Below, in pieces: positions 35,520-50,848 of a DNA stretch of 64,000 nt. The stretch is from positions 1 to 64,000 of the forward strand of contig NZ_CALEMI010000051.1 in the NCBI RefSeq assembly GCF_937910895.1. The letters are read 5' to 3'. The notes below the pieces were generated by a model that saw nothing but the letters and a program-made list of their open reading frames with translations, searched no databases and was not told the DNA's origin. A program made the translations under genes and the position numbers. The DNA comes from an uncultured Dokdonia sp. (GTDB taxonomy: Bacteria > Bacteroidota > Bacteroidia > Flavobacteriales > Flavobacteriaceae). Numbering within the stretch: position 1 is the first letter of the stretch; the number at the start of each line of letters is the position of its first letter.

Positions 35520-36620
35520 TTATTCTATGGTACAATTATCTTGAAATCCTGAGGCATTAAATGAAGCTTCTCCCCCTATACTTATTTCATTAGAGATACC
35601 TATGCGTAGTATATTTCCTCCGTTTCTTTTAGGAGTACAATATTGCAAAAGATAGAAACTGTTTGCTTCATTTTCGATCTCTTGTGCTACAGATGTAAAC
35701 TCTTCCTCTAATTGATCAGAATCTTCAGGGAAAAAAGAACCACTGTAGCCTACTTGACTTAAGATATTTTGATCAATTTCATTACCTAATCCTACAGAAT
35801 AGATATCTAGACCTTGTAGATTTGCATTGTTTACAATGCTTAACGCTTCGTTGGTGGTGTTAAAATTAGCTTGATCTGTACCATCTGTGAAAAACAAAAT
35901 AGAACCACCTGTTATGAATTGAGATTGAGAATTAACCTCTTGAATAGTGTAGTTTATACTTTGTATAATAGCTCCATTAAGATTTGTTGATTGGTCAGAA
36001 GGAAGTGTATCATTAATTTCTTGGATTTTTTGCTGTAATAAATCTTCGTCTGCTGTGAAATTCTGAAATATACTTATGTTTTGATTTCCATCAAACCATA
36101 GTATTGAGGTAAAAAGATTTTCAGCATTTACTTGTCCATAGATATTTTGTACAAAACTAGATGTAGCCATTTTTAATTGTTCTAAATTATTTTGAATAAC
36201 ACTACCACTTAAATCGAGAACAATAGTATTAAAGTATTTAAAATCTGCTTTGTCTGGATCAATTTTTCTGAACGCTTCGTTTACTGAGATTAAATTAAAA
36301 CTACTATTACTTTGTGGTTTCTCATAAATTTCAAAGAAGTTTTCTGTTTTATTAGGAACAGGGTTACCATCTATATCATTTAATTTAAAATAAACCTCTA
36401 TTGTATTTGAATTTGCAGGTATAGTATTACTTGGAGATTGAGATGTGTTAATATCTCTAACAAGAACATTAAATGTTGCATTTGCTGGATCTCCAATGAC
36501 ATCTTCAATTTCTATTTGCTCATCCTCATCACAAGGTCCTATAACGCCTAAAAAACAACCATCTTCACAAGATGTAAAGAGAGAAATGATAAGGATTACG
36601 AATATATTTTTTAGTTTCAT
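35520..36620 (-). CDS. VWA-domain lipoprotein
   Basis: A 366-residue exported protein with a lipobox (LFTSC, lipid Cys18), so it is membrane-anchored. After an N-terminal beta-like region, a von Willebrand A domain starts near residue 130: VLDLSGS (Asp136, Ser138, Ser140) is the MIDAS metal site and FFTDGTD is the distal MIDAS Asp. The last part has a C-terminal Cys pair. VWA domains bind ligands through metal and may link to caspase or MoxR partners. An 18-bp NarL-like palindrome lies 49 bp upstream of the start, tying the gene to the caspase regulon nearby. Confidence 0.88.
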   Translation of the reverse strand: MKLKNIFVILIISLFTSCEDGCFLGVIGPCDEDEQIEIEDVIGDPANATFNVLVRDINTSQSPSNTIPANSNTIEVYFKLNDIDGNPVPNKTENFFEIYEKPQSNSSFNLISVNEAFRKIDPDKADFKYFNTIVLDLSGSVIQNNLEQLKMATSSFVQNIYGQVNAENLFTSILWFDGNQNISIFQNFTADEDLLQQKIQEINDTLPSDQSTNLNGAIIQSINYTIQEVNSQSQFITGGSILFFTDGTDQANFNTTNEALSIVNNANLQGLDIYSVGLGNEIDQNILSQVGYSGSFFPEDSDQLEEEFTSVAQEIENEANSFYLLQYCTPKRNGGNILRIGISNEISIGGEASFNASGFQDNCTIE

Positions 36621-36669
36621 GATATATAATTTTATGGTTCAAAAATAGGAGTAACAAGAAGGCTAAAGA

Positions 36670-36687
36670 ATACCCCTTAATAGGTAT
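36670..36687. promoter_or_regulatory. NarL-like 7-2-7 palindrome upstream of the VWA gene
   Basis: ATACCCCTTAATAGGTAT contains TACCCCT-TA-ATAGGTA, which fits the NarL heptamer pair TACYYMT-N2-AKRRGTA exactly. It is 49 bp before the VWA lipoprotein start. Three related 18-mers follow in this region. Confidence 0.6.
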
Positions 36688-36844
36688 TTGTATAGTTTTC
36701 TTTTCGAACATATTATTTCGTAATAGACAAAGAAATAGTAACCGATAGTGCCATCCGTGAAATCTTAATATGGATGGCTAGTTCTATTTCCATGAGGTCT
36801 TTTATTTAGAACCCTTAAATTAGAACTTTCATACCCACCAAAAC

Positions 36845-36862
36845 ATACCTTATTGTAGGTAT
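36845..36862. promoter_or_regulatory. Second 18-bp palindrome of the same family
   Basis: ATACCTTATTGTAGGTAT shares the ATACC...GGTAT ends and 18-bp length with the other sites. Its inner bases deviate from the NarL heptamer. It abuts the LuxR-type gene's stop codon and lies 222 bp upstream of the VWA gene. Confidence 0.45.
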
Positions 36863-37246
36863 TTATGCCTCCTGCTTTTTGTGGATATATACATAGGCAA
36901 TTTTGTGCAGCGCACCACTCCCAGAGATTTGTAATTTCTTGATGATATTTTTACGATGCGTACTCACGGTAGCTTCACTAATAGCTAACATTGTAGCAAT
37001 TTCTTTTGATGAGAAATCTAACCCAATCAAATTAAATATTTGATTCTGTCTGGAAGATAATATCGTCGAATAGTGTTCTTGTTTGCTATATATTTTGATT
37101 AAATGAATGATCTTATCGATTAATTCGGGATTGTCAGAAATTGCCCGATAGGCAGTAATGATATGAAGCGTTTGCTGAATGTTTAATTTCTCGTGTTGTA
37201 AGCAAGCTTGTTCAATATTCGCTATGATTTTTTGGGTTGTATTCAT
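36863..37246 (-). CDS. Stand-alone LuxR/NarL-type HTH protein
   Basis: A 127-residue protein with an N-terminal helical part (1-55) and a C-terminal LuxR-type helix-turn-helix (about 62-122): LSSRQNQIFNLIGLDFSSKE, then IATMLAISEATVSTHRKNII. It has no receiver domain, so it is not directly phosphorylated. It lies between the VWA gene and the caspase-linked response regulator. A palindrome of the type expected for such regulators lies 34 bp upstream of its start, suggesting autoregulation or cross-control. Confidence 0.85.
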   Translation of the reverse strand: MNTTQKIIANIEQACLQHEKLNIQQTLHIITAYRAISDNPELIDKIIHLIKIYSKQEHYSTILSSRQNQIFNLIGLDFSSKEIATMLAISEATVSTHRKNIIKKLQISGSGALHKIAYVYIHKKQEA

Positions 37247-37280
37247 AGTATAAAGCTACTCAGAAAGAACATTGCCTACC

Positions 37281-37298
37281 ATACCCATCATTAGGTAT
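37281..37298. promoter_or_regulatory. NarL-like palindrome upstream of the LuxR-type gene
   Basis: ATACCCATCATTAGGTAT has TACCCAT as a perfect first heptamer and TTAGGTA as a near-perfect second, separated by 2 bp. Its distance to the start codon (34 bp) equals that of the caspase operon site. Confidence 0.6.
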
Positions 37299-37427
37299 TT
37301 CTATGAAGAGATGAGTGAAATAAACTCTAAATCCTGAATTTCAAAAAAAACTTCCCGCACCCAGCACCCAGTCATACGTTTTATGCCCTACAGCGAAGCG
37401 GTTTTATGTCTTTTTTAAACTCCGAAA

Positions 37428-38075
37428 TTAAAACTCATATTTCTTTTGTATCGCGTATTTAAGAAGTTCGCCTTTACCGCTAAGTCCTAGTTTGCGCATC
37501 ATATTTTTACGATGCTTTTCTACCGTCGAAACCGCTGTAAAACGGATATCGGCGATTTCTGAGGAGGTTTTATTATGAGCGATCAATTTTAAAATTTCCC
37601 GTTCGCTTTTGGATAATAGCGACTTAGGTGTTTTTGTTTTTGTGCCTAATCCATCGTGAGAACCATCACGATCAAATAGTTGTTGATTAATTCCTGTGTC
37701 ATAATAGATCTTGCCTTGCATGACGGTATGAATTGCATTCAGAAGCTCTTCTAGCGGACTATTTTTTAAAATGTATCCCTTAGCGCCTGCATCTCGCATT
37801 TGGATCACCGCTTCGTCTTGATCAAACATAGAAAACGCAATCACCTTGGTGTGTGGGAACTCTTTGGTAATGATTTTAGTTGCTTCGATGCCATCCAATT
37901 TTGGCATTCGGATGTCCATAATGACCACTTTAGGTTGCTTTAAGCGGACAATGTCCAGCAGACTTTTCCCATCATTTGACGTCCCGATGATAGAGATACC
38001 TTCTTCATATTTCAAAAGCAGTTCGATTCCGTCTATCAGGGATTGGTGGTCTTCGGCGATGGCTACGGTGATCAT
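37428..38075 (-). CDS. NarL/FixJ-family response regulator
   Basis: A 215-residue regulator with an N-terminal receiver (Asp54 in VVIMDIRMPKLDG; Lys in YILKNSP) and a C-terminal LuxR HTH (KTPKSLLSKSEREILKLIAH, then SSEIADIRFTAVSTVEKHRK). It is the last gene of the caspase/unknown/kinase/regulator group and is 135 bp from the kinase. NarL-type regulators bind TACYYMT-like heptamers, and such sites lie before the caspase, LuxR and VWA units, so it is their best candidate controller. Confidence 0.92.
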   Translation of the reverse strand: MITVAIAEDHQSLIDGIELLLKYEEGISIIGTSNDGKSLLDIVRLKQPKVVIMDIRMPKLDGIEATKIITKEFPHTKVIAFSMFDQDEAVIQMRDAGAKGYILKNSPLEELLNAIHTVMQGKIYYDTGINQQLFDRDGSHDGLGTKTKTPKSLLSKSEREILKLIAHNKTSSEIADIRFTAVSTVEKHRKNMMRKLGLSGKGELLKYAIQKKYEF

Positions 38076-38169
38076 TTTTTTGTATTTATGTGTTTATATG
38101 TTTGAGAGTTTATGAGTTTCAAAGTATTGATTTTCAGATAGTAATCTCTCTCATTTCGTATAGTATTGA

Positions 38170-38217
38170 ATCATTACATCATTATATCATTACTCCATTA
38201 TATCATTATTTCATTGT
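38170..38217. repeat. Tandem octamer repeat between kinase and regulator
   Basis: Six 8-bp units of the form ATCATTAY (ATCATTAC, ATCATTAT, ATCATTAC, TCCATTAT, ATCATTAT, TTCATTGT) run into the stop codon of the kinase. Slippage could change spacing between the two genes. Confidence 0.7.
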
Positions 38218-40115
38218 AAAGGTATATCAATACTCACACTCGTGCCACGTCCTTGAGCGCTATCGACTTCCATAGTGCCTTCTAAATGCTCTACGCGGCG
38301 TTCTATATTACCGAGTCCCATTCCATCTTTTTCCTTGAGTTTGCCGACTTTAAATCCCTTTCCGTTATCCTCGACCATAATGTTGAGTTCGTTGTCGTGT
38401 TGAGTGAGAGAAATACTTGCTTCGGTAGCTTGGGCGTGTTTTACGATATTGGTCACAAGTTCCTGTATGATTCTAAAAATGGTAATCTCTAGTTCGTTGG
38501 GAATTCTGTTTTCGAGTCCAAAGTCTTGTACATCTATTGCAAGTTGATTAGTCGTAGAAACGGTACGTGCGAGTTTCTGTATCGCAGGTAGTAACCCTTC
38601 CTTAGCCATCACACCACTATTACTCTTATGAGAAATCCCACGGACTTTCTCATACGTCTCATTGATTAAGAGATTAGCTTTTTGGAGTAAGGCTTTGGGG
38701 TCGTCTACTTTATCCAGATTTCGCTCTAGATTTTCTACCTGCATCCGTACGGTAGCGAGTGTACTTCCTATATTATCGTGTAACTCTCCTGCAAGCCGTA
38801 AGCGTTCTTTTTCTTGCCCAGAGACCATCGCATTAATGGTTTCGATTTCTTTTTCTTTAAGGATAGTTTCTGTCTTTTGGATTTGGAGTTCGCGGTCTTG
38901 CTCTGCAATACGTTGTTTTCGTTTGGTGTTTCGGTAAACGAGGAAGGCTATTATTGATCCTAGGAGGAGGGTGGAGGTAAGGGCTATGGTGATTTGTTTT
39001 GTTTTTGCTTCTTCTTCTAGCTTGTCTGCTCTAAGTTTTTGATTATTATTCTGTTCTTCAAGAATTTGTTTTTCTTTTTCGGCGGTTTGGTATTTGGTTT
39101 CAAATTCTTTAAATGCATTTATATTTTTATTAACTAAATCGTGTTCTAATATTATGGAATATTTTACTAGATTACGGTAAGCATTTTTATAATCTAATCT
39201 TACAGAGTCAGCTAGTGATTTATAAAAATAAAAATACTTTAGATGTCCTTTTTCGAATTTGTTATTAGGTTTTTTATTTATTCTTTTTAGATTTATATAT
39301 ACGCTATCCAAGTTTATATGCATAAAATATCGAGCTTTTGAAATGAAAGAAGAATTTATAACAGTAGATTTATAATTAGATGGGATTTTAGAAAGACTTG
39401 TAATTGCTTTATTTTCATAAAAAATTGCATTTTTTTTATCTTCTATTTCATCATAGTAACTAGCAATTAATTGATATATAATTGCATTTAGGTATTTGTG
39501 ACTTGATGTTTTTGTGAATTCTAAAAGATTTTTTTGAACTTCAGGATTCCATTTTTTTTGTTTATAATGTTGAAAATGTAAAATTAAATTATAGTATTCA
39601 TAGAATACATTTTCAATTGAATCGCTTTTAAATTTCCTATATTGACTCAGATATTCTTTTGATGTTATATTTTCAATTAAATAATCCTGCCTGTTGTGAT
39701 TTAAGATTTGTCTAAGAGCAGTACAGATGTATATGGAATCCCTATTTTCTTTTCCAATTTGTAAAGCTTTTAGATATTTTTTCTGGGCTTCTTGGTTTTT
39801 ATTAGGATATTTATAAAGAAGATAATCTCCATAATTTATGTAATATAGAAATTTGGCTAATTTTGGAGTTTGATCGTTTATTTTAATAATATCTTCTATA
39901 TATCTAAATTTGGAAGCATAAATATCATATTCCTTAAGAAATTCTAATCTCCATTTAATCATATCCTTTGTTAAACCTTGAAAAGAATCTATTTCATTTG
40001 TGATTTCAGAAAGTTTATGATCTCTGAATTTTTTTAATAGAAGTTCCTCTTGAGGATACAAAAAACAATTACTCAAGAGGAATATTACAAATAAAATATT
40101 TTTTTTCAAACTCAA
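38211..40115 (-). CDS. TPR-containing sensor histidine kinase (HisKA_3 type)
   Basis: A 634-residue kinase. It has a signal peptide (FLLSNCFLYPQ), TPR-like repeats through about residue 340, one membrane helix (about 374-394, IALTSTLLLGSIIAFLVYR), a coiled coil, a HisKA_3 dimerisation domain with His446 in RLAGELHDNIGS, and a HATPase with QELVTNIVKHA and DNGKGF. This NarX-type kinase pairs with the NarL-type regulator downstream. Its start overlaps the stop of the unknown partner by 4 bp, so the caspase group and the two-component genes form one operon. Confidence 0.92.
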   Translation of the reverse strand: MSLKKNILFVIFLLSNCFLYPQEELLLKKFRDHKLSEITNEIDSFQGLTKDMIKWRLEFLKEYDIYASKFRYIEDIIKINDQTPKLAKFLYYINYGDYLLYKYPNKNQEAQKKYLKALQIGKENRDSIYICTALRQILNHNRQDYLIENITSKEYLSQYRKFKSDSIENVFYEYYNLILHFQHYKQKKWNPEVQKNLLEFTKTSSHKYLNAIIYQLIASYYDEIEDKKNAIFYENKAITSLSKIPSNYKSTVINSSFISKARYFMHINLDSVYINLKRINKKPNNKFEKGHLKYFYFYKSLADSVRLDYKNAYRNLVKYSIILEHDLVNKNINAFKEFETKYQTAEKEKQILEEQNNNQKLRADKLEEEAKTKQITIALTSTLLLGSIIAFLVYRNTKRKQRIAEQDRELQIQKTETILKEKEIETINAMVSGQEKERLRLAGELHDNIGSTLATVRMQVENLERNLDKVDDPKALLQKANLLINETYEKVRGISHKSNSGVMAKEGLLPAIQKLARTVSTTNQLAIDVQDFGLENRIPNELEITIFRIIQELVTNIVKHAQATEASISLTQHDNELNIMVEDNGKGFKVGKLKEKDGMGLGNIERRVEHLEGTMEVDSAQGRGTSVSIDIPLQ

Positions 40116-40852
40116 TTTTTATATGAAAAATACGTATTTCTTGGTTTACAGGGTATATCAAACCCTTTAGGAGTTGAATCATCTGAAGTTTTATTTAAAT
40201 TTAAATCAGCACCCGTTGACTTTAATTGTGTATTAGATATTAACTGTCTATTTACTAATTTAGATAAATTCTGCTTACCTAAAGTTGATATTTGTATGTC
40301 TTCTCCCATTCGTTCCATAAATATTTCGTCAACGTAACTAGCTTTTTTAATATTCACAATATCGTAGATTTTTGTTAATTCTGATTTTATAGGTATAAAT
40401 ACTGACTCAGTAACTAGTACATCCCAATGATAAATATCTATATCCAAGTTATCAATTTCTATGAAATTTTTCTCCATATTAAAACCTTGAAGCCCAACTT
40501 CTATCATAATTTTATTTCTATCAGGAAATCTATTATCTTTATCAGGGTCTTTACTATCTATATTACTTATTACATCAATATCAAAATATCCAGTGAAACC
40601 TATAGATACTGGACCTGTATAGTTTTGTAGGTATAATTGAATTTTATTTACATTAAAATAATTCTCTCTGCTACTTCCAATAAATTTAGCATAAATAAAA
40701 AAATGAGTTCCATAAACTAAATCTGCATAAATAGATTGCCAATCTGCTACCTCACTTTTATGTTTTAAATCCTTACTAAATATATCAGTGTCATCGCTTT
40801 TTGCAACTATGTTTTCATTTAAACTTAAGGTATGTTTAATATTCTCGTGCAT
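40112..40852 (-). CDS. Unknown protein between caspase and histidine kinase
   Basis: A 246-residue soluble protein without signal peptide. The middle looks beta-rich (HFFIYAKFIGS, VSIGFTGYFDIDVI, NKIMIEVGLQGF), suggesting a binding domain, and the C-terminus is polar. I recognise no family. It starts 15 bp after the caspase gene and its stop overlaps the kinase start by 4 bp. It is very A+T-rich like the caspase. It could be a substrate, inhibitor or signal carrier for the caspase; no evidence decides. Confidence 0.6.
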   Translation of the reverse strand: MHENIKHTLSLNENIVAKSDDTDIFSKDLKHKSEVADWQSIYADLVYGTHFFIYAKFIGSSRENYFNVNKIQLYLQNYTGPVSIGFTGYFDIDVISNIDSKDPDKDNRFPDRNKIMIEVGLQGFNMEKNFIEIDNLDIDIYHWDVLVTESVFIPIKSELTKIYDIVNIKKASYVDEIFMERMGEDIQISTLGKQNLSKLVNRQLISNTQLKSTGADLNLNKTSDDSTPKGFDIPCKPRNTYFSYKN

Positions 40853-40867
40853 AATATTTAATTTATT

Positions 40868-41671
40868 TTAATTAAAAAAAGTTTGATTGATTATTCCTGA
40901 TTCATTTAAATATTGAGGGGTTTGCAGATACTCTTTTGATAAATCAGGCAATTTTTTTTGGAGTATACTTATTGCTTCTTTATAAGTTATTAGTGGATCA
41001 TTTTTTAATACATCAATTAGATACCTACTGAATATTCCATTAAATCGATTTTTAATAATATCTTCAAATGCTTCTTCATTATTTTTGCTTGCAGTTAATG
41101 TTAATCTATTCAGGGTTGATATATCTTTAAAGAAGTTTTTGTATATTATTTCTTTGTTGGTTGGATTTATAACTTTATTAGAAGCTTCATAAGTTTTTGA
41201 TTTTAGATATTTATTTTTAATTGAATCATCTATATTACATAAACCATCTTTATAAAATTCAACCCCTCCCGAAAAACAAGAATCAATAATAGATATTAGC
41301 TTAGCCTTGTCTTTAAGTGGATCAAGTCTTTCTCTAATTTCTTGATCTGTTATTGTTCTATCTACAACTCTGATACGTTCTTCAATTATAATTTTATTCC
41401 CAACTTCTTTTTTTTCAATAACACCATGTCCAGAAAAAATAAATATGCCTAGTTGTTCATTTTTTAGATTATGTATAAATTTTTTAAAAACTTTAAGTAT
41501 GTAATCAGATTTTGTTTCATAACGATACCTCAAGCGTATTATATTGCTAGGACAAACATTATAATAATTTATTAAAAGTTTTTCCCAATCTTTTGCGTCG
41601 TTCTCACATCCGTTCAGAGATTCAATTCCATTATAATGGTTTATACCAATAATAAGAGCTTTAATTTTCAT
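40868..41671 (-). CDS. Caspase-like (C14, metacaspase-type) protease
   Basis: A 267-residue protein from ATG 41671; an upstream TTG would add six residues but would spoil the 34-bp spacing to the operator. It has the caspase fold: ALIIGINHYNGIESLNGCEN at the N-terminus, catalytic His82 in FIFSGHGV, and Cys132 in IIDSCFSGG. Asn/Asp residues suit a P1 basic-specific type. No signal peptide or membrane anchor is present, so it is cytosolic. It leads the operon with the unknown protein, kinase and regulator. Prokaryotic caspases can act in cell-suicide or peptide-processing systems; which applies here is unknown. Confidence 0.9.
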   Translation of the reverse strand: MKIKALIIGINHYNGIESLNGCENDAKDWEKLLINYYNVCPSNIIRLRYRYETKSDYILKVFKKFIHNLKNEQLGIFIFSGHGVIEKKEVGNKIIIEERIRVVDRTITDQEIRERLDPLKDKAKLISIIDSCFSGGVEFYKDGLCNIDDSIKNKYLKSKTYEASNKVINPTNKEIIYKNFFKDISTLNRLTLTASKNNEEAFEDIIKNRFNGIFSRYLIDVLKNDPLITYKEAISILQKKLPDLSKEYLQTPQYLNESGIINQTFFN

Positions 41672-41705
41672 ACTCCAAACATACCCCAACCATCCCCATC
41701 AAAAC

Positions 41706-41723
41706 ATACCCACTACTGGGTAT
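41706..41723. promoter_or_regulatory. NarL-like palindrome upstream of the caspase operon
   Basis: ATACCCACTACTGGGTAT is 18 bp, symmetric in its outer seven bases, and 34 bp before the caspase start codon. The heptamers TACCCAC and CTGGGTA each differ from the NarL consensus by one base. Confidence 0.6.
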
Positions 41724-42725: not shown

Positions 42726-43562
42726 TTAGGTTAATATTTCATTATTAAATATAGTCATCAATTTTCTTTGTTGAGGCCTCAACAAAGAAAATTGTTTTAT
42801 GAACTTTTCAGGGCTCATTCTTTGGTTATTGTTATGCAATCTTTTGTTGTTATAATTGTTCACTGCTTTGCTGACCATTCTTTTTAGTTGTCCAAAGTCT
42901 TTTGGCTTCCAATTATCTAGATATTCTTCTTTTATAGTTCTATTGATTCGTTCTGCATAGGCATTATCTTGAGCTGAGAGTGACATACTAATCTTACTTC
43001 CATTGCTCTTTAGAAGTGCTATATACTCCTTGTAAGTATATTGACTGCCTCTATCACTATGATGAATCAATGGAGCTTGATTTGTCTTTAAAGCCATATT
43101 GAGTGCGTCCATATTAGCTTTTGCTCTCATGTTGTCAGATACTTTATAACCTACAATCTTTTTTGTGTACACATCTATTATAAAGACAGCATAATAATGC
43201 CTGTTTCCAATAGGAATATAAGTGATATCAGACTGCCATATCATGGAAGGACGGTCAACTTGCATTCCCTTTATTAGGTTAGGATAATAGATTTTAGAGG
43301 CTATAGTGGTTTTTCTATAGTTCTTTTTACGTTTTAACCGATATCCTAATTCCATCATTAGTTCTATAAACCTATCTCTTCCAATAAAATTGGGATTCAG
43401 TGTATAGTACATTTTCTCCACCCCACAACCTGGATGTTCTTCTCGAAGCTCATCTGCTTCAAGGATCATCTGTTCTACTTTTGTGTCAAAAGCTTTTTGT
43501 CGCACACTGTATTGCACAACGCCTTGTTTACTCAAGCCAGCTTCTTTATAGAGCTTGTTCAT
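42726..43562 (-). CDS. IS3-family transposase OrfB
   Basis: A 278-residue integrase-core transposase. The catalytic triad is WQSDITYIP (first Asp), HHSDRGSQY (second Asp) and NAYAERINRTIKEEYL (Glu). An N-terminal HTH_21-type helix region (VEQMILEADELREEHPGCG) precedes it. It is probably made mainly as an OrfA-OrfB fusion by -1 frameshifting, because orfB is in the -1 frame of orfA and no stop separates them after the slip at the AAAAAG run near the orfA stop. Confidence 0.95.
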   Translation of the reverse strand: MNKLYKEAGLSKQGVVQYSVRQKAFDTKVEQMILEADELREEHPGCGVEKMYYTLNPNFIGRDRFIELMMELGYRLKRKKNYRKTTIASKIYYPNLIKGMQVDRPSMIWQSDITYIPIGNRHYYAVFIIDVYTKKIVGYKVSDNMRAKANMDALNMALKTNQAPLIHHSDRGSQYTYKEYIALLKSNGSKISMSLSAQDNAYAERINRTIKEEYLDNWKPKDFGQLKRMVSKAVNNYNNKRLHNNNQRMSPEKFIKQFSLLRPQQRKLMTIFNNEILT

Positions 43563-43570
43563 AGAAAAAC

Positions 43571-43969
43571 TTACTTTTTGTTTGTTTTTCCTGAACCAGT
43601 TGATTGTGGGGTGGCGTAATTTTTTTTGATGTCGATATTTAGTTCTTCTTTAGCAATCTCCATCATTTTCTCCAGATATTCAATCTTTATCTGTTTACGA
43701 CCTACGGCACTCTCTAACTCTTTAACACGAGCTTCTAGGGCTTTCATTTTTTTATTACTGCTGTCTTTCATCTCTACAATTCTAAATCCCTTTTCATTAA
43801 AGGTAGAAAATTTATAGATCCATTTATAAATTGTAGGATTGGAAACACCATGTAATCTTTCCAATTGATAAACACTGTACTTCCCACTTTCAAAATCATT
43901 AACAATCCTTTTCTTAAATTCTGTTGAGTATTGACGCTGTTTACGAACACTCCGTACGTTTGTTTTCAT
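43571..43969 (-). CDS. IS3-family OrfA (HTH protein)
   Basis: A 132-residue DNA-binding protein with a transposase-type HTH (STEFKKRIVNDFESGKYSVY, then LHGVSNPTIYKWI) and a coiled coil/leucine zipper (KKMKALEARVKELESAVGRK) typical of IS3 OrfA. The last codons hold a C-AAA-AAG-TAA string, a candidate frameshift site. It recognises the IS ends and dimerises the transposase. Confidence 0.93.
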   Translation of the reverse strand: MKTNVRSVRKQRQYSTEFKKRIVNDFESGKYSVYQLERLHGVSNPTIYKWIYKFSTFNEKGFRIVEMKDSSNKKMKALEARVKELESAVGRKQIKIEYLEKMMEIAKEELNIDIKKNYATPQSTGSGKTNKK

Positions 43970-49756: not shown

Positions 49757-50848
49757 CTATCTTGGGATTTCTATGGATTGTACAATCATATCAATGACTT
49801 GTTCTGCAGTCATACCTTCCATTTCTCTTTCTGGAGATACAATCACACGGTGACGCATCACAGGTGTTACCGAACGTTTTACATCTTCTGGAATTACAAA
49901 GTCACGTCCAGCGATGGCTGCAAATGCTTTGGATGCATTCATAATCGCAAGCGAAGCACGTGGCGAACCTCCTAAATATAAATGCGGATGCTTACGAGAT
50001 TTGATGACAATCTCTGCAATGTAATTCAGAATCTTTTCTTCGATCATCACCGTTTGCGTCTGCTCTCTAAACGTTGTTAGCTTTTGAGGATTCAATACCG
50101 CATTAATGGTATCTTTTGCAATCACACCTTTGCGATCATGATGGCTTTGTAGGATCGTAATTTCCTGATCTAAAGATGGATAGTCTACTTTGATTTTAAA
50201 TAGAAAGCGGTCTAACTGTGCTTCGGGAAGGGCATAAGTACCTTCTTGTTCTATAGGGTTTTGTGTTGCCAGTACCATAAATGGTGGTGGCATAGGATAG
50301 CGTGTACCGTCAATAGTGATTTGGCGTTCTTCCATCACTTCAAAAAGGGCTGCTTGTGTTTTGGCAGGGGCACGGTTAATCTCATCGATCAATACGATAT
50401 TAGAGAAAATAGGCCCTTTTTTAAACTCAAATTCGCTGGTTTTCATATTAAGAATCGACGTTCCTAATACATCACTTGGCATTAAGTCTGGTGTAAATTG
50501 CAAACGACTGAATTCTGTATCGATTGTCTTCGCAAATAACTTTGCAGTGACTGTTTTTGCAATCCCAGGGACACCTTCTATCAACACGTGACCATCAGAA
50601 AGCAGTGCCACAATAAGAAGCTCTATAAATTCTGATTGCCCTACAATAATTTTGGCAAGCTCCTCTCGGATATGATTTGCTGCATTGCGTAATTCTTCTA
50701 ACGGAATCCTGTTTGTAAACGTAAGATCTTCTTGCGTATTGGTAGTGTCCTCTATGATTTCTTCTGGAGTTGCCGAAGGAATATCTCGTGGTAATGGCGT
50801 ATTTTCCTTTCCGTCTTCTGGTACTCCAGTTCCTGTTACGTCGTCCAT
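49757..50848 (-). CDS. MoxR-type AAA+ ATPase
   Basis: A 363-residue ATPase with Walker A EGVPGIAKT (91-99), Walker B IVLIDEINRAPAK, and sensor ATQNPIEQEGTYALPEAQLD. An N-terminal acidic extension of about 45 residues is present. MoxR proteins hydrolyse ATP to remodel partner proteins; the adjacent DUF58 protein is the usual partner. It sits in the middle of the conserved flavobacterial cluster, 1 bp from its neighbours, so translation is coupled. Confidence 0.95.
   Translation of the reverse strand: MDDVTGTGVPEDGKENTPLPRDIPSATPEEIIEDTTNTQEDLTFTNRIPLEELRNAANHIREELAKIIVGQSEFIELLIVALLSDGHVLIEGVPGIAKTVTAKLFAKTIDTEFSRLQFTPDLMPSDVLGTSILNMKTSEFEFKKGPIFSNIVLIDEINRAPAKTQAALFEVMEERQITIDGTRYPMPPPFMVLATQNPIEQEGTYALPEAQLDRFLFKIKVDYPSLDQEITILQSHHDRKGVIAKDTINAVLNPQKLTTFREQTQTVMIEEKILNYIAEIVIKSRKHPHLYLGGSPRASLAIMNASKAFAAIAGRDFVIPEDVKRSVTPVMRHRVIVSPEREMEGMTAEQVIDMIVQSIEIPR

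Follow-up and report, generated by a model that had tools for sequence, protein, structure and literature searches.

A caspase operon of an uncultured Dokdonia species with a candidate shared operator and an exchangeable protease and sensor

Introduction

To our knowledge, the role of bacterial caspases and the manner in which they are switched on are largely open. The present work concerns a caspase operon encoding its own two-component system, and the 18-bp palindromes found before it and before two neighbouring genes, in a 64,000-nucleotide stretch of DNA from an uncultured Dokdonia sp. (contig NZ_CALEMI010000051.1; this whole stretch is referred to as the window). Among the closest described systems are the EAD/EACC conflict systems, in which, according to parts of two reports, a caspase or trypsin stands beside a constant partner with exchangeable effectors (PMC7159879; PMC8195603). 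According to one passage of these reports, the vWA-associated effectors showed no histidine kinase domains. Two-component control of CRISPR-Cas has been described in Marinomonas, where a kinase and a regulator act over defence-acting genes (PMC8523701, in the part available). NarL/NarP-type regulators, which combine a REC and a GerE domain, bind a 16-bp palindrome with TAC...GTA ends.

The locus described here resembles the EAD/EACC systems in having a caspase or trypsin and exchangeable parts, and differs from them in that its chassis is a histidine kinase and a response regulator with an operator. The Marinomonas system belongs to a different bacterium and has different targets, and protease exchange is not mentioned in the available part of PMC8523701. 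The response regulator has the same REC and GerE domains as NarL and the site beginning at 36671 fits the NarL sequence exactly; however, the consensus of the locus is TACCY N6 RGGTA, and the NCBIfam NarL model NF007935 gave 101.7 (rounded, 102) bits against a cut-off of 250, so that the protein is not a NarL equivalog. Among the matches listed, no description of such a cassette was recognised in the open-licence literature.

It is considered, with good confidence, that a single two-component system has the four sites as its operators and would activate the caspase operon, a small LuxR-type gene, a VWA lipoprotein gene and, further away, a few genes whose products are exported, and that a cassette of protease, partner and sensor is exchanged on a constant chassis. 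The sites are real and very probably regulatory, judging from the sequence comparisons given below. What is new relative to the original prediction made from the window is that the caspase slot is exchangeable together with the sensor, with the signalling chassis remaining constant.

Genes of the locus and exchange of protease and sensor

The genes of the locus, in the order of transcription on the minus strand (aa, amino acids), are as follows:

40868-41671, minus strand: caspase-family peptidase, 267 aa, in the exchangeable slot (Pfam PF00656, E 1.8e-18; SGHG and DSCFSGG by eye)
40112-40852, minus strand: partner protein, 246 aa, family A, with no Pfam or NCBIfam match
38211-40115, minus strand: histidine kinase, 634 aa, HisKA_3 and HATPase_c, transmembrane segment at about residues 383-395
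37428-38075, minus strand: NarL/FixJ-family response regulator, 215 aa, the proposed operator binder (Pfam PF00072 and PF00196)
36863-37246, minus strand: small LuxR-type (GerE) protein, 127 aa, with relatives in the genus (Pfam PF00196, E 3.9e-13)
35520-36620, minus strand: VWA-domain lipoprotein, 366 aa (Pfam PF00092, E 9.1e-10; lipobox SLFTSC by eye)

The caspase scored 67.5 bits against a C14 cut-off of 21.4 and carries the His and Cys motifs of that family by eye; its ATG is at 41671, and the open reading frame (ORF) caller places the start at an upstream TTG, 41689. Assignment of the response regulator to the NarL/FixJ family rests on matches to PF00072 (1.3e-25) and PF00196 (4.2e-12), both above the Pfam cut-off, and the statement that the caspase operon itself encodes a NarL-family regulator and a kinase is borne out by the Pfam domains. 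The N-terminal half of the kinase is probably exported, from a signal peptide judged by eye; a Pfam scan of this sensor half gave no match, and a TPR match was obtained for one of five kinases scanned (L127). The same kind of scan found no receiver domain in the small LuxR-type protein. When six proteins of the locus were compared with PADLOC models, the caspase matched a caspase model (39 bits, residues 3-158); no defence system was callable, and the two regulators matched CARF models only via their helix-turn-helix part.

Neighbourhoods were fetched for relatives of the LuxR gene and for named loci of relatives of the response regulator, with three contigs common to both sets (L121, L122 and L134 are the same contigs as L061, L057 and L060, respectively). 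Unrelated proteases were found in the caspase slot of these loci. A subtilase occupies it in L055, L100, L130, L132 and L138, all above the Pfam cut-off, and a papain-like C70/C39 peptidase in L126, L136 and L143 (above a Pfam cut-off) and in L058, L059, L089 and L135 (below). A trypsin-like protein is present in L057, where the Pfam match is weak, and in L121, L127, L133 and L140, for which Pfam gave no match and the assignment is by alignment only (H and G-[DN]-S-G). Elsewhere the slot holds no protease, for example in L056, L060 and L103. Close orthologues of the caspase are absent in relatives; a match was found in 8 of 99 genomes including that of the window, the others being at 26-33% identity.

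The sensor half of the kinase is exchanged along with the protease. Among five close relatives, the kinase halves are 88-96% identical and the sensor halves 16-24%, apart from 47% for one pair of the same protease class, namely the trypsin-like loci of genomes G014 and G007. Comparison of the window with G015, G011, G014 and G007 gave 88-90% for the kinase half and 20-24% for the sensor half, and in the pair Aquimarina latercula (papain-like) and A. amphilecti (subtilase) the two halves are 97 and 25% identical, respectively. The comparison was extended to 13 loci of three protease classes, leaving out the caspase locus, the protease-less loci, the second kinase of L132 (included in the comparison of close relatives) and L143, whose class was then unassigned. 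Sensor identity was 0.32 within and 0.18 between classes, and the corresponding values for the kinase half were 0.65 and 0.68. The observed sensor contrast was not reached in any of 10,000 label shuffles, a figure which ignores descent. The L143 sensor is closest to the papain-like class (0.27-0.37 vs 0.15-0.21) and its slot protein matches Pfam C70.

These values bear on the strongest alternative, by which the slot is a hitch-hiking hotspot where recombination between conserved flanks swaps proteases and sensors with no functional match between them. An exchanged block between conserved flanks (the MazG-side gene and the kinase domain) could be produced by homologous recombination alone, and linkage alone could also yield a higher likeness of sensors within a protease class. 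However, it is the sensors which are more alike within a class and not the kinase halves, and this explanation is regarded as possible but doubtful. Tandem modules of partner and kinase within one locus, with sites between or before them, were also observed (L132:3519-10627 and L100:3439-9471).

Palindromic sites in the window and the own genome

The pattern ATACCN8GGTAT was found five times in the whole window, compared with a mean of 0.03 in dinucleotide shuffles of it. The features concerned are listed here, the term composite denoting an operator with its -7 box:

41706-41723, minus strand: candidate operator of the caspase operon, ATACCCAGTAGTGGGTAT on this strand, by pattern; composite at 41676-41722, 0 mismatches
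41676-41683, minus strand: predicted -7 box TATGTTTG of the caspase operon; predicted +1 at 41671, the A of ATG
37281-37298, minus strand: candidate operator of the small LuxR-type gene, by pattern; composite at 37251-37297, 1 mismatch
37251-37258, minus strand: predicted -7 box TAGCTTTA of the LuxR-type gene; predicted +1 at 37246, the A of ATG
36845-36862, minus strand: weaker operator-like site, box TAATTTAA matching at 4/6, with no gene start within 160 bp
36670-36687, minus strand: candidate operator of the VWA lipoprotein gene, exact NarL-consensus fit; composite at 36640-36686, 0 mismatches
36640-36647, minus strand: predicted -7 box TATTTTTG of the VWA gene

The original prediction had placed four palindromes at these positions, which the pattern search reproduced, and had taken them, as far as could be seen, to occur in this stretch only, which was found to be incorrect. 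A fifth copy (50095-50112) lies within coding sequence and has neither the Y/R core nor a -7 box, and the own genome holds 16 copies (reversed control, 4), of which 7 are within coding sequence. With the core, as ATACCYN6RGGTAT, there are 11 (control, 2), four of them in the window; the others are intergenic on C85, C126, C128 and C160 (two) and within coding sequence on C148 and C150. The shorter TACCYN6RGGTA occurs 23 times against 18 for its control, so lone short matches carry little meaning.

Relative to the NarL consensus TACYYMT-N2-AKRRGTA, the 16-bp sites starting at 36671, 37282, 41707 and 36846 have 0, 1, 2 and 3 mismatches, as had been claimed (one exact, two off by one or two bases, the fourth sharing only the ends). 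The name NarL operator is apt for the 16-bp palindromic layout and not for the consensus, which differs from that of NarL. The proposed spacings also agree, at 34 bp from the end of the 18-mer to ATG 37246 (LuxR gene) and ATG 41671 (caspase gene) and 49 bp to ATG 36620 (VWA gene).

Conservation of the sites in relatives

The search for sites covered 48 of the 80 named regulator loci (L121-L168), the other 32, at 35-42% identity, being left out, and spanned 5 kb upstream to 2.5 kb downstream of the regulator gene, 373 kb in total. TACCYN6RGGTA was found 74 times in these loci, with at least one site in 35 of the 48; 30 dinucleotide shuffles gave 0.73 on average and never more than 3, and the reversed pattern matched once. 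TACC was the most enriched of the 256 words in the arrangement wN8w', with 80 occurrences compared with 3.7 expected from base composition. The usual places in these relatives were directly before the operon and directly after the regulator gene, which is also the arrangement in the window. The second most enriched palindromic word in L121-L168 was TCCCN8GGGA (16 vs 1.0 expected).

The presence of the regulator was compared with that of the sites in 13 genomes with a regulator match at E 1e-50 and 46 without. The strict form ATACCCN6GGGTAT was found 33 times (reversed control, 3) in the former and 11 times (control, 1) in the latter, with 4 of these 11 in G001, a fragmented genome which holds the kinase and LuxR genes of the system. 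Five strict sites were also present in G042, which is among the genomes outside this comparison. Eight of nine loci titled Flavobacterium have no sites; a sharp rule that Flavobacterium regulators are without sites was dropped, as L145 carries two.

Promoter geometry

The distance between palindrome and promoter was examined in 121 unique sites oriented to a gene with an ORF start within 160 bp, in loci chosen for holding the motif or the regulator. A TAnnTTTG box matching at 5 or more of 6 positions was found at offset 39-46 from the start of the palindrome in 78 of the 121. The next-best offsets gave 11 sites (offset 16, in the T-run after the palindrome) and 7, and the opposite orientation gave an average of 1.5 and a maximum of 5. 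When similar flanks were merged, 63 of 104 sites were phased, with no more than 8 at any other offset, and in the named 48 loci 58 of 74 sites were phased on the operon strand. Window scores were 6/6 for the VWA and caspase sites, 5/6 for the LuxR gene and 4/6 for the site at 36845.

In the part of PMC9723704 dealing with sigma-A promoters of F. psychrophilum, the -7 box TAnnTTTG is placed at -12 to -5, and 5.5% of mRNAs are given as leaderless. The predicted promoters of the locus have the same box and add a palindrome at a fixed distance before it. Taken with the fixed offset, the published position of the box puts the palindrome centre at about -43.5. This is close to the usual place of activators which touch the polymerase, and the phase therefore suggests activator geometry (class II-like). 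The layout of a class II-type promoter, an operator at fixed phase directly upstream of the core promoter, was found in these sites (offset 39, 78/121). Together with the recurrence in relatives, this fixed phase supports an operator shared by the caspase operon, the LuxR-type gene and the VWA lipoprotein gene. At nine phased sites, six of which belong to LuxR-type genes, the start codon is exactly at the predicted +1, and the caspase and LuxR-type mRNAs are predicted to be leaderless.

The same geometry bears on the possibility that the sites are repressor operators, where the regulator (or the LuxR protein) would hold the operon off until released by a signal. Repression would suit a dangerous protease, and several NarL-family proteins both repress and activate. 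However, repressor sites usually vary in position, and here the 78 phased sites have a constant spacing between palindrome and -7 box, with the palindrome preceding the -33 region, as is typical of activators which touch the polymerase; repression is thus considered unlikely.

The probable binder of the sites

The sites are likely to be bound by the operon's response regulator and not by the small LuxR protein. A LuxR relative was detected in 7 of the 48 regulator loci, and 28 of the 41 loci scored without one still have sites, which favours the response regulator; L121, one of the 28, ends at a contig edge inside the LuxR gene, and 27 of 40 remain when it is omitted. Genome G029 has the regulator and sites with no LuxR gene in the locus. 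The G004 locus has an orphan response regulator (L231:6363-6989) with no adjoining kinase and protease genes and no site there; elsewhere that genome has five sites, and at three of these the box is phased with 5 or 6 of 6 matches. Of 24 loci in which the recognition region reads EIAxxRFx[SA][VI]ST[VI], 23 have sites, compared with 12 of the 24 others (Fisher p 0.0007, the classes having been defined after the data were seen).

That the small LuxR-type protein is the main binder, with the response regulator acting elsewhere, would fit the LuxR gene having sites on either side, both in the window and in several relatives within the genus, and the helix of the LuxR protein being 51% identical to that of the paralogous C160 regulator, which also has sites nearby, and 33% to that of the window regulator. 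The 28 loci (27 excluding L121), G029 and the phased distal sites of G004, where only the orphan regulator is at the locus, all speak against it, and it is held to be improbable. Finally, the view that the 18-mers are chance or repeat-derived palindromes of no regulatory meaning, which could point to the 7 of 16 in coding sequence, can be dismissed given the shuffle, reversed and all-palindrome controls and a promoter phasing which is kept after similar flanks are merged.

Proposed mechanism and meaning

On the reading of the sites as activator operators, the histidine kinase, located in the membrane and with a sensor half that is probably exported, would pass a signal to the NarL/FixJ-family response regulator. 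Once phosphorylated, this would bind TACCYN6RGGTA palindromes, the centres of which lie some 43.5 bp before the transcription start, and activate the promoters in a class II-like manner. It would activate its own operon (caspase, partner, kinase and regulator), and by this positive autoregulation the protease would become an induced product of the signal. Further targets would be the genes of the small LuxR-type protein and the VWA lipoprotein, and a few distant genes whose products are exported. The protease would act in the cytosol and may have a role in stress or defence. The slot protease, partner and sensor half are exchanged as a unit, with operator, kinase domain and regulator forming the constant chassis, and within the genus the chromosomal position is mostly the same. 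What the sequences themselves show are the sites, their phasing and conservation, and this exchange. The original prediction of an autoregulated signalling system with a protease output is thereby refined to an activator model: the regulon is supported, autoregulation is predicted, and the protease gene is real, whereas the slot as such is exchangeable between unrelated proteases.

Several observations weigh against this reading. No site was found in 13 of the 48 regulator loci, and 4 of the 13 regulator genomes (G007, G008, G017 and G019) have no strict site. The looser ATACCYN6RGGTAT gave 75 (control, 27) in the regulator genomes and 60 (control, 41) in the 46 others, so the contrast between genomes with and without the regulator is weaker. 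Fewer than 5 of 6 box positions match at the fixed offset in 43 of 121 sites, and the site at 36845 has no evident gene (no start within 160 bp, box 4/6). The helix class is confounded with relatedness. In the own genome, composites with up to 3 mismatches number 73 against 75 for the reversed control, and a wider regulon is therefore not readable from it. Partner families A and C had no Foldseek match at E 0.001, and no VIA-align result for the family A model exceeded Z 2.7.

A broader interpretation, which is plausible but more tentative, is a modular surveillance system of Flavobacteriaceae. The chassis would take up protease-partner-sensor cassettes, each reading a different envelope signal, one regulator would induce the protease together with surface proteins, and the functional unit would be replaced under arms-race-like selection. 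A caspase under a definable kinase-regulator operator makes its induction directly testable, and unrelated proteases in one slot with exchanged sensors amount to a natural swap experiment with one chassis and many protease-sensor pairs. For finding regulons in a phylum in which few are mapped, use can be made of the composite rule (palindrome, 23 bp, TAnnTTTG).

Candidate distal targets

In the own genome, composites with 0-1 mismatches were found at five places, namely the VWA, caspase and LuxR sites of the window, C126 (before a gene whose 497-aa product is secreted) and C160 (at a paralogous two-component operon). Seven more have 2 mismatches, including the site at 36845 and a lipoprotein gene on C128. 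Excluding core and paralogous loci, 15 of the distal sites fetched from the own genome and from relatives combine a box of 5/6 or better with a gene start within 180 bp, and 14 of the 15 genes open with a signal peptide or lipobox by eye; the distal targets in relatives thus appear to be mostly exported proteins. Six further phased distal sites have no such gene, two of them lying within coding sequence. A Pfam scan of ten proteins from distal or related loci gave Kelch, FG-GAP and Por secretion tail matches, with five having no domain or weak matches only, and no nitrate gene was seen among the ten.

A regulon restricted to defence was considered from the neighbours of own intergenic sites, which are CBASS genes on C160, an ABC-3C hydrolase operon on C128 (Pfam CTD8) and an MmeI-type restriction enzyme on C126. 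It was rejected because the fixed-offset boxes point to genes other than these neighbours, to the lipoprotein on C128 (4/6) and the secreted 497-aa gene on C126 (5/6).

A phased operator promoter followed by a GGGGGA core and a terminator-like hairpin was noted by eye in L095 (7009 onward), L110 (5897 onward), L085 (6431 onward) and L247 (minus strand). This stretch is possibly a small RNA of the regulon. It is near an MMPL gene in at least three of the four genomes; in the own genome and eight others examined, no such stretch was seen next to MMPL.

Related loci, partner proteins and neighbouring genes

Under the related ARRANGEMENTS, the own C160 locus and C475 of G007 carry a paralogous regulator and sites like TACCTTGGTGAGGGTA, beside a trypsin-like gene, confirmed by Pfam in C160, and a CBASS operon, which encodes CD-NTase with HORMA and TRIP13 in C160 and CD-NTase with E1-E2 and JAB in G007. 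A paralogous kinase-regulator operon beside a trypsin-like gene was observed in L071:7859-16803 (own C160), L076, L167 and L168, with CBASS genes in L071 and L076. Six sites before downstream genes of paralogous operons have [AGT]T[AT]CTTG[TC] at the fixed offset in place of TAnnTTTG, which is reminiscent of the TAnnTTGY alternative-sigma box described in a part of PMC9723704. Distant caspases adjoin other kinase/NarL-type regulator pairs in L063, L064, L068 and L069 (four of eight loci inspected), with a TIR-domain gene in L064.

The family A partner is fast-evolving, with invariant N, G, R, G and C in 13 aligned members. Structural models of the partners are beta-rich or mixed overall, that of family A being beta-rich with a predicted local distance difference test (pLDDT) score of 61 and that of family C having 77. 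A known fold was dropped as an explanation for these proteins, there being no significant structural match with models of low to middling confidence, which is no proof of novelty. For comparison with EACC1, the EACC1-associated caspase model NF047832 gave 33.2 bits against a cut-off of 140, and the window partner has the beta-rich family A model and no domain match. Unrelated partner families (L121-L168 and window 40112-40852) end in short recurring tails, which are GGGVL-like, KDGSIIV-like or have an invariant Cys near the end. A transposase pair (rve and HTH_Tnp_1), IS3-like by eye, is located near the locus at window positions 42726-43969.

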